DNA of 64,000 nucleotides, taken from positions 62,001 through 126,000 of the forward strand of contig NZ_JACJOO010000075.1 of the NCBI RefSeq assembly GCF_014695575.1, written 5' to 3'. The position numbers and the translations under genes are program-made. Positions within the stretch are counted from its first letter, which is position 1. Every line of letters starts with the position of its first letter. The DNA comes from Leptolyngbya sp. FACHB-8. GTDB taxonomy: Bacteria > Cyanobacteriota > Cyanobacteriia > Elainellales > Elainellaceae. The notes under the pieces were generated by a model. The model did not search any database and was not told where the DNA came from. It was given only the letters and a program-made list of their open reading frames with translations. Positions 3,556 through 47,901 of the stretch are shown here, piece after piece.

Positions 3556-3686
3556 TCTGGCCACTGATAGGCCTTTTGTAGAAGGGAGTAGTGCCCTACA
3601 GCCGCCCTCTTCTATTAAGAGATAACCCTTCCGCTCTAGTAAGGTACGAGAGGATGTAGAACTTCGTCCTATCCTCTTGCACCTCA

Positions 3687-3787
3687 CTAGTACGCTGAGG
3701 CGGAAATCCATCACCTATGTTTTTGTGTAGGGTGCGAAGCACCCTACACAAAAACATAGGTTGCGAACTTAGGCCGCAGCCTACTAG
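3687..3787 (+). repeat. Palindromic element, family H, copy 1 (101 bp)
   Basis: The element runs from CTAG to CTAG with outer ends CTAGTACGCTGAGGCGG and CCGCAGCCTACTAG. A hairpin (3713-3761) has 23-base perfect arms and a GAA loop. A second copy of exactly the same length lies at 17442-17542. The two copies differ by a paired change in the stem and by inversion of the loop (GAA against TTC). Nearby bases 3820-3910 hold two weaker inverted repeats. Confidence 0.85.
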
Positions 3788-4057
3788 AGCGGAGAATGCT
3801 GTATTTCAGAGCAGATTGTCCCTGGAAACAATTGTTTTTGGGAAGGGGTGAAGCCGCTCTCTCAAAAACAATTACAGGTTATTTTATGGGTGACCCATAA
3901 GATAGACGACGCGGGGTAATGATGTTGGATACGCTATAAAGTAATCTTATAGCTTCTTTAGTTAGGCATATGGATTGTGTTAATGCATAAGGAATCTTAT
4001 GCTATCGCAAACCCCTATCCAAACCCCAAAAGTCCCCCTCACGTCACAACAAAGATT

Positions 4058-17441: not shown

Positions 17442-17542
17442 CTAGTACGCTGAGGCGGAAATCCATCACCCATGTTTTTGTGTAGGGTGCTTCGCACCCT
17501 ACACAAAAACATGGGTTGCAAACTTAGGCCGCAGTCTACTAG
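17442..17542 (+). repeat. Palindromic element, family H, copy 2 (101 bp)
   Basis: It has the same length and ends as the copy at 3687-3787. The stem differs by a paired change (ACCTATG/CATAGGT there, ACCCATG/CATGGGT here), and the loop is TTC instead of GAA. Confidence 0.88.
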
Positions 17543-27148: not shown

Positions 27149-27173
27149 TCGTTCTCGTTACACCGTTTTGGGG

Positions 27174-27233
27174 AGTGGAAGTTTTGCTTCCACTCTCTGT
27201 CACACTTTAGAGAGTGGAAGCAAAACTTCCACT
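27174..27233 (+). terminator. Long hairpin after the RTX gene
   Basis: AGTGGAAGTTTTGCTTCCAC and its complement form 25-base arms (27174-27198 and 27209-27233) starting 26 bp after the stop codon. Each arm is itself partly self-complementary (GGAAG and CTTCC), so alternative folds are possible. Confidence 0.6.
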
Positions 27234-27260
27234 CTCTGTATTTTTAGTATTTTCAAATCT

Positions 27261-27372
27261 GAGGACGTTTCCGAGTGCAACACACCATGGGACACTCGAA
27301 AACGCCCTGAATCAGACAGGTTATTGTTTGAAAAGCCTCGCTCCGTCAAGCTTTTCAAACAATAACCTGTCT
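27261..27372. repeat. Worn family A hairpin followed by family F copy
   Basis: CGTTTCCGAGTG/CACTCGAAAACG (27266-27307) resembles the first hairpin of family A. It is followed at 27314-27372 by a hairpin with 23-base arms AGACAGGTTATTGTTTG.../...CAAACAATAACCTGTCT and the family F core GAAAAGC/GCTTTTC. Confidence 0.6.
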
Positions 27373-27402
27373 AACAGAGTGCTTAAGGTTTGTACCTGGT
27401 GC

Positions 27403-27453
27403 ATATCTCTTGTATGGAGTGTGTACGGCGCACACACTCCATACAAGAGATAT
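27403..27453. repeat. Single long hairpin
   Basis: ATATCTCTTGTATGGAGTGT and its complement pair almost perfectly around a short GTACGGCGC centre. It is part of a run of palindromes between 27174 and 27647. Confidence 0.65.
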
Positions 27454-27515
27454 TTGGATAGAAGCGCGATCGCCTCCAAACTCTTACCATGAGGTCGGTT
27501 CGAGCATGACTATCA

Positions 27516-27647
27516 CAGCAGTTATCATTATGAGCTTCAAAGCCAAGATTGCGCGCCCGACGGGCGCGCAATCTTGGCTTTGAAACCCGAAAACCGCTTG
27601 CCTTCGGCAAGCGGTTTTCGGGCCTAATTCCATACTGAGAATTGCTG
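27516..27647 (-). repeat. MITE-like element, family E, copy 1 (132 bp, 9-bp target duplication)
   Basis: The ends CAGCAGTTATCA and TGAGAATTGCTG are inverted repeats. TGACTATCA is repeated directly at 27507-27515 and 27648-27656. Two perfect hairpins lie inside (27536-27584 and 27586-27622). It has the same length and layout as the copy at 33021-33152, in the opposite orientation, but the stem sequences differ. It is inserted in the relic of a polysaccharide deacetylase gene. Confidence 0.92.
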
Positions 27648-27856
27648 TGACTATCAATAAAGTCTTGCAGCAAGCTCGCTCAGGAGAGATCATTTTGTTG
27701 CATGATGAGGGGCGGCGACCAGATGACTCCCGTTGAGACATTGCCGCAAATTCTGTCGGCTTTTCCCGATAGAGCTCGGTTTGTGACTGCACTGGAACTC
27801 CTACACCTGGGTGCGCCGGATTCTACTCATGTCCCCCCTGAAACCTCTACTAAATA
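27648..27856 (+). pseudogene. C-terminal relic of a polysaccharide deacetylase (NodB family)
   Basis: Reading from 27650 gives T-I-N-K then VLQQARSGEIILLHDEG, the typical C-terminal block of NodB-type polysaccharide deacetylases. At about 27712 the frame must shift by one base, in a G-rich run, to continue as QMTPVETLPQILSAFPDR and FVTALELL, also family-typical. The 5' part is replaced by the family E element and a run of palindromes, so the gene is truncated as well as frameshifted. Its 3' end overlaps the start of the next gene by about 28 bases. Confidence 0.75.
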
Positions 27857-32948: not shown

Positions 32949-33020
32949 CAAATACACCAGACCCCAGCGTGTTGTCGCCGCGAACCATAGCATAACTCTG
33001 GGGTCTGGTGTGAGATGTGG

Positions 33021-33152
33021 CAGCAATTCTCATTTTGAAATCCAACCCGAAAATAGCCCGCCGAAGGCGGACTATTTTCGGGTTTCAAAGCTGAGAGTTC
33101 GTGCCCTTCGAGCACGAACTCTCAGCTTTGAAACCCATACTGAGAATTGCTG
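33021..33152 (+). repeat. MITE-like element, family E, copy 2 (132 bp, 9-bp target duplication)
   Basis: It runs from CAGCAATTCTCA to TGAGAATTGCTG. GAGATGTGG is repeated exactly at 33012-33020 and 33153-33161. Two hairpins (33046-33082 and 33083-33133) match the layout of copy 1 at 27516, but most stem bases differ while pairing is kept (one mismatch). Confidence 0.93.
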
Positions 33153-33275
33153 GAGATGTGGCTTCACGCAATAGCAACGCCCGGAGAAGTAGTATAAGGG
33201 TGAGGTATTGCCTTCCACTTCACTGGGCTGATGTCTTCAACCTTAAAGCGAAGGTAACAGAGACGGAACACGCGA

Positions 33276-47677: not shown

Positions 47678-47901
47678 CTAGTATTGCATGGGGGAAATCA
47701 ACCTATGTTTAGTGGAGTAGGGTGTTTCACACTCCACTAAACATAACCTCAGTTCGGGATAAGCTGAAGTGCTCATTTTGGCGTGCGCAAAGCGCACGCC
47801 AAAATGAGCGTTTTCGAGTGCCGCGCAACGCGCGGCACTCGAAAACGCCCTTAACCCGAACTCAGGTTAAACATAGGCAACCTTAAGACCCTAAGCACTA
47901 G
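47678..47901. repeat. Family H element split by a family A element
   Basis: CTAG (47678) to CTAG (47898) with worn family H flanks. The hairpin ACCTATGTTTAGTGGAGT/ACTCCACTAAACATAGG is interrupted in its right arm after AAACAT by the family A copy at 47745-47867. Removing the insert and one TAAACAT restores the pairing fully. Confidence 0.88.
47745..47867 (-). repeat. Palindromic element, family A, copy 3 (7-bp target duplication)
   Basis: It is in reverse orientation (AACCTCAGTTCGGG to CCCGAACTCAGG) with TAAACAT at 47738-47744 and 47868-47874. Its first hairpin reads GCGTTTTCGAG/CTCGAAAACGC where copy 1 has GTGTTTTCGAG/CTCGAAAACAC, a paired change. Confidence 0.9.

Follow-up and report, generated by a model that had tools for sequence, protein, structure and literature searches.

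Two palindromic elements in the DNA analysed here are, judging by their sequence, copies of a 132-bp non-autonomous transposon (MITE) that would have reached its many sites by transposition. Across the family, the arms of its two hairpins are homogenised and the loops between the arms are inverted far beyond what independent mutation would yield, with loop orientation, as read from one draft assembly per genome, at equilibrium. We consider it likely that these hairpins are hot spots for arm-to-arm template switching during replication, which would keep their stems paired without selection on the fold.

The window, by which we mean the whole 64,000-nucleotide stretch of Leptolyngbya sp. FACHB-8 DNA that was analysed, contains 81 instances of the HIP1 octamer GCGATCGC and two copies of the MITE. 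Copy 1 (locus L031) occupies positions 27516-27647 on the minus strand, between 9-bp target duplications TGACTATCA at 27507-27515 and 27648-27656, while copy 2 (locus L001) occupies 33021-33152 on the plus strand, between duplications GAGATGTGG at 33012-33020 and 33153-33161 (the duplications themselves are unstranded). The coordinates, the length, the perfect 9-bp duplications and the CAGCAATTCTCA-type ends given in the original prediction can all be seen in both copies, the left end of copy 1 reading CAGCAGTTATCA, with two mismatches. Each copy has two hairpins with perfect stems or a single mismatch, and the 37-bp hairpin is common to both, again as predicted. In copy 1, hairpin H2 (24-bp arms, loop GAC on the plus strand) spans 27535-27585 and hairpin H1 (17-bp arms, loop TTC on the plus strand) spans 27586-27622, both being oriented on the minus strand; in copy 2, H1 (17-bp arms, loop GAA) spans 33046-33082 and H2 (24-bp arms, loop TTC) spans 33083-33133, both on the plus strand. 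The hairpins do not, as had been claimed, come in the same order: read along the plus strand, copy 1 presents the 51-bp hairpin before the 37-bp one and copy 2 the reverse, copy 1 being inverted relative to copy 2. When copy 1 is reverse-complemented, 99 of 132 positions are identical to copy 2, compared to 74 of 132 as written. In the correct register, 29 of the 41 stem pairs are the same, nine have changed on both arms and three on one arm only. The statement that most stem bases differ was hence an overstatement, of a kind that fits a comparison made in the wrong orientation, whereas the paired character of the differences is genuine. Close upstream of copy 1, at 27173-27453, lie three more perfect or near-perfect hairpins (27173-27234, 27314-27372 and 27403-27453), downstream of a 2034-aa protein with Big_5 and RTX repeats.

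The genome from which the window derives is a 6.93-Mb draft in 95 contigs, and the HIP1 octamers of the window and the closeness of its elements to cyanobacterial ones both agree with a cyanobacterial origin. The pattern CAGCAATTCTCA-N96..120-TGAGAATTGCTG occurs at 74 places in this genome, compared to none for the reversed control, and a covariance model finds at least 150 matches with E below 1e-22. We extracted at least 142 copies with recognisable ends, 106 of them exactly 132 bp long. Target duplications are perfect (9/9) in 84 of these 142 copies and match at 8/9 in another 28 (112 together); none reaches 10 bp. The duplicated 9-mers vary from copy to copy, as expected for insertion at many sites, and the ends are inverted repeats of about 17 bp, made up of CAGCAATTCTCA plus KTATGG or TTTTGR. 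The element is short and non-coding, carries terminal inverted repeats of 12-17 bp, is flanked by a duplication of fixed length and is present in many dispersed copies, as befits a MITE, and its ends match those of autonomous elements with a duplication of equal length (L199, L294, L285 and L291; see below). The original view of a mobile element moved in trans thus finds support in the copy number, in the perfect duplications and in intact insertion sequences with the same ends elsewhere. A genome devoid of additional copies, the outcome named as refuting that view, is not what we find.

Among the copies, we observed a tandem pair (L018:1360-1632) where the duplication ACACTACAA is present three times and where the second copy (L018:1501-1632) is a mosaic, made up of two subfamilies, whose H2 mismatches stand uncorrected. 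At L079:1257-1516 and L076:1501-1759, members of a second MITE family are nested within copies of the first, forming composites of 259-260 bp, with an apparent TACTGA duplication at the nested insertion in L079. At L078:1560-2270, three near-identical tRNA-like genes stand in a row, with a MITE copy between the first and the second. Beyond this genome, a comparison with the only genus-mate found synteny broken at both window loci, matching stretches being only 65-82% identical, so that it yielded no recognisable orthologous empty site. The exact family is absent from the relatives G011, G013, G015 and G018, and a search of plasmid sequences for the MITE returned no match. Matches in two other relatives were rejected as family members: those in G019 belong to an unrelated MITE, and the match in G033 is an element without such hairpins. 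At G033:C1:1529874-1530004 (L313) lies a 131-bp element that has the same ends and neither perfect hairpins nor a visible target duplication.

Do the arms of the hairpins change together? In 71 aligned copies, 98.3% of stem cells are paired. Testing the stem positions for covariation, we find 299 cells changed on both sides, as opposed to 87 in shuffled alignments and no more than 29 when partners are slid, and none of 500 shuffles reaches the observed signal. Along a minimum spanning tree there are 46 compensatory doubles and 87 single-arm changes, where independent mutation would lead us to expect about 0.2-0.6 doubles. Deletions may be paired as well: in L028, one arm lacks GAG and the other CTC, and L078:155-284 has lost one base off each arm. 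Single-arm deletions also occur (for example in L042, L045 and L068). In L007, H1 has a second arm extended by five bases, and the extension is complementary to the sequence adjoining the first arm.

So strong a covariation signal, together with the terminator-like appearance of some hairpins (33058-33070), could suggest that the element specifies a functional RNA or an RNA-level signal, with selection retaining the hairpins through ordinary compensatory mutation in two steps. However, non-Watson-Crick cells in the 106 in-register copies are G·T in 53 and A·C in 59 cases, revealing no wobble preference (binomial p=0.64), which argues against selection at the RNA level. The doubles lie far above the two-step expectation, and 70 of the 106 copies have at least one stem mismatch, so that pairing is evidently not strictly enforced. 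In addition, copies sit at random sites with target duplications, loop orientation is random at 50:50, and no Rfam family matches at its gathering score. We consider RNA-level selection extremely unlikely.

Alternatively, the paired changes might be only apparent, with whole hairpins swapped between subfamilies by recombination. The mosaic copy L018:1501-1632 points to such exchange, many doubles are common to several copies, and whole-hairpin exchange does account for some of the 46 doubles, which counts against our preferred explanation. Such exchange being possible, a strict count is restricted to doubles present in no more than two copies of the family. There are five of these, compared to 0.02-0.05 expected, and only these five are rare enough to exclude exchange. 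Swapping makes no new paired states, against which stand the five paired states found in at most two copies family-wide, and paired deletions and loop inversions require some other process. It is insufficient as the sole cause and, in that role, scarcely credible.

A further scenario, and one that the original prediction had put forward in the form of strong selection on the folded form, holds that the cruciform or hairpin DNA is itself selected, being needed by the transposase or by the host. Near-perfect stems in almost all copies are what such selection would leave. The frequent mismatches described above argue against it, as do elements elsewhere that share the ends and often lack such hairpins. 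We scanned a 257-billion-base genome collection for CAGCAATTCTCA-N100..115-TGAGAATTGCTG, where about 0.015 chance matches are expected (an estimate that assumes uniform base composition), and found at least 86 stretches; those listed come from Pseudanabaena, Phormidium, Laspinema, Nodosilinea, Verrucomicrobia, Kiritimatiellae, Chloroflexi, Lentisphaerae, Mariprofundaceae, Thiomargarita and others. Their interiors vary between lineages. Note that their length range of 124-139 bp is fixed by the search pattern and hence uninformative. Among the matches listed, 60 of 88 distinct same-ended elements carry 8/9 or 9/9 duplications, and about 64 of the 88 have no perfect core inverted repeat of at least 10 bp with a spacer of at most 15. 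Most still have 9-bp duplications, so hairpins seem unneeded for mobility. Moreover, selection on the fold alone yields no one-step doubles, paired deletions or loop inversions, and we judge it to be very unlikely. Whether one takes RNA selection, selection on the fold or plain recombination among copies, several facts go unexplained.

Conservation of the ends across cyanobacteria, Verrucomicrobia, Kiritimatiellae, Chloroflexi and Proteobacteria marks out a MITE superfamily of wide distribution. We found no name for a superfamily with these ends in the searchable literature, and none of the literature containing the tested end sequences is, judged by titles, about MITEs.

Turning to the loops as assembled, 22 copies of the main subfamily have AAA and another 22 have TTT as their H1 loop, while the H2 loop reads TAC in 24 and GTA in 24, the two loops flipping independently of each other (Fisher p=1). 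Pairs of copies that are identical at all 126 non-loop sites have the same loops in 18 cases, inverted loops in 15 and otherwise different loops in three. Inversion among copies that are otherwise identical means that loops flip faster than approximately one substitution per element.

Inverted loops or paired arm changes are also seen in four other repeat families. A second, unrelated MITE at 47746-47867 of the window (122 bp, two hairpins, ends ACCTCAGTTCGGG, flanked on both sides by TAAACATA) has 96 pattern matches in the genome. By hand count, the 41 mismatch-free matches have the loop AAA in 26 cases and TTT in 15, with no other loop, and nine of 20 two-mismatch copies represent paired arm changes, of five kinds. 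In the relative G019, an unrelated TA-flanked MITE has GAT and ATC loops in a ratio of 7:5 in one form and TTT and AAA loops in a ratio of 6:4 in another, and there is hardly any other difference between copies beside loop orientation. The two copies of a third palindromic repeat family, at 3682-3792 and 17442-17542 of the window, differ from each other by an inverted loop (GAA versus TTC) and by a paired T/C arm change (CTATG..CATAG versus CCATG..CATGG). Finally, an element from Pseudanabaena has an outer segment in triplicate, the three copies of which usually alter jointly (for example in L178, L184 and L202), while in L118 and L136 the triple segment is not yet homogenised. The triple segments of Pseudanabaena biceps (L120, L118, L136 and L171), most of them homogenised, are possibly intermediates of the same process.

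Might the loop inversions be an artefact of assembly or library preparation? Hairpins are hard templates, and the genome is a draft assembly of 95 contigs. However, arms of 17-24 bp are below usual read and k-mer lengths, paired stem changes could not come about in this way, the same pattern is present in the independent genome G019, and inversion of spacers is on record for yeast strains (PMC8604942). An artefact strikes us as highly improbable.

How, then, might arms be corrected and loops be flipped? Two perfect hairpins, with arms of 17 and 24 bp and loops of 3 nt, would be hot spots for copying between arms. As a replication fork copies a hairpin, the nascent strand would take the opposite arm as its template, either by folding back on itself or by switching to the sister strand. 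Where one arm had mutated, such copying would carry the matching change into its partner (arm homogenisation), and a switch to the sister template would additionally invert the loop. Stems would consequently remain paired while their sequence drifts, with no need for selection on the fold. In yeast, template-switch mutation at inverted repeats involves both arm homogenisation and spacer inversion, including a change from TTC to GAA (PMC8604942); template switching also maintains RNA hairpins (PMC8794818), and loop inversion with intact arms is a footprint of intermolecular template switching (PMC8604942, PMC8794818). Arm-to-arm template switching was the first mechanism to be proposed for these elements; in its support we see substitutions and deletions that come in pairs, the extension of an arm, inverted loops and the absence of G-U bias.

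On sequence patterns alone, template switching at forks is hard to tell from its main rival, in which cruciforms are extruded, cut and recombined, or some event accompanies each transposition, without any template switching by the polymerase. Exchange between inverted arms would give loop inversion, and flips that are saturated even among copies without other differences fit an event per transposition. Yet recombination would have little to work on in arms of 17-24 bp, and the extension of an arm into neighbouring sequence in L007 and the paired small deletions better match template copying. That the same flips are found in unrelated MITE families also argues against this rival. We infer that copying occurs at replication forks and not through cruciform recombination, and regard the rival as unlikely, although deserving of serious attention.

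What would have moved the MITE? The original prediction looked to a transposase gene with matching ends and 9-bp duplications; such genes are found in other cyanobacteria and on plasmids, but not in the MITE's own genome. A scan of other genomes for 12-bp ends with unusual bases after them led, in Pseudanabaena biceps, to a 1418-bp insertion sequence (L199:101-1518) with target duplication GAGATTTAT and ends CAGCAATTCTCATTATG that encodes a 435-aa transposase; transposases 78% identical are present in relatives from the same taxonomic family as the window's genome. A 1420-bp copy (L294, duplication CCTACTGTC) has ends CAGCAATTCTCAGTATGG and CAGCAATTCTCATTTTGG, which match the MITE's own two ends, different as these are from each other. 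Plasmids of Calothrix and Nostoc carry versions of 1865 and 1890 bp with the same ends and 9-bp repeats (L285 and L291 are plasmid-borne autonomous copies), and a variant with 9-bp repeats and ends CAGCAATTATTGGT is present on a plasmid of Saccharobesus. In an alignment of seven transposase homologues D127, D216 and E336 are invariant, which is consistent with a transposase of DDE type. Pfam DDE_Tnp_1 matches the transposase (P0001) weakly, below the cut-off, and one homologue, from Gloeothece verrucosa (WP_013335080.1), is annotated as 'ISNCY family transposase' in RefSeq. No NCBIfam model matched at its cut-off, a sequence search of solved structures found none resembling the transposase, and a search of viral contigs found no relative of it.

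A matching transposase was found neither in the MITE's own genome (G000) nor in the genus-mate G011, when the same query matched 16 of 40 relatives, so the mover would now be absent or unassembled. Note that a transposase in the same genome is a condition for present activity, not for status as a MITE. Transposases matching Pfam DDE_Tnp_1 at seven places in the own genome were rejected as candidate movers, none having CAGCAATTCTCA ends. No pair of the same ends 500-5000 bp apart with duplications was present among the loci collected by that point, and where the 12-bp end continues in a non-standard way in the own genome, it proved to belong to a degraded or nested MITE (as in L076 and L079) or, in a few cases, to stand alone, with no bracketed insertion sequence. 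We suggest that a DDE transposase, acting in trans, would have inserted the MITE with 9-bp target duplications and has since probably been lost from the genome or left unassembled.

Template switching at inverted repeats is known from phage, bacteria, yeast and rRNA genes. Zhou et al. (2008) reportedly described Nezha, a cyanobacterial MITE, and Elhai et al. (2008) are said to have found small dispersed repeats of 21-27 nt in Nostoc, with compensatory stem changes that were read as RNA structure. Like bacterial insertion-sequence MITEs (reviewed in PMC10969869) and Nezha, the present family is short, non-coding and high in copy number, with inverted ends, target duplications and ends in common with a full insertion sequence; it differs, with Nezha compared by description only, in its two perfect internal hairpins, covarying arms and freely inverted loops. 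ISNCY-annotated insertion sequences (as in Gloeothece verrucosa, WP_013335080.1) have the same 12-17-bp CAGCAATTCTCA ends and, in related cyanobacteria as well as on plasmids of Calothrix and Nostoc, 9-bp target duplications, but they encode a transposase, the MITE sharing only their ends. Paired arm changes, loop inversion, arm extension and one-step doubles are likewise features of previously reported template switches (PMC8604942, PMC8794818), although those concern scattered single loci or rRNA genes under selection, whereas here a single genome holds a mobile element in many copies, with no sign of RNA selection. The Nostoc repeats resemble this family in being small cyanobacterial repeats with compensatory stem changes, which here are explained by copying at the DNA level. 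We found no literature joining bacterial MITEs with template switching, in a search that covered mainly freely accessible papers. The novelty lies in the scale and in the lack of RNA-level selection; MITEs, template switching and compensatory changes in cyanobacterial repeats were already known.

It seems to us slightly more probable than the converse that hairpin-bearing bacterial MITEs are, in general, self-correcting palindromes, their arms rewritten and their loops flipped through template switching so frequently that loop orientation equilibrates before a single point mutation is fixed. If this is true, covariation in such repeats would be no evidence for RNA structure, and any genome with such a family would keep a natural, replicated record of the rates of template switching. 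Covariation between stem arms is usually treated as the best evidence for functional RNA. In the present family an apparent process at the DNA level yields that signal in a selfish element, and similar repeats would be false positives in RNA discovery. With upwards of 100 copies almost identical within a single genome, sequence suffices to measure how fast point mutation, arm correction and loop inversion proceed relative to one another, which bears on how perfect hairpins originate and persist.
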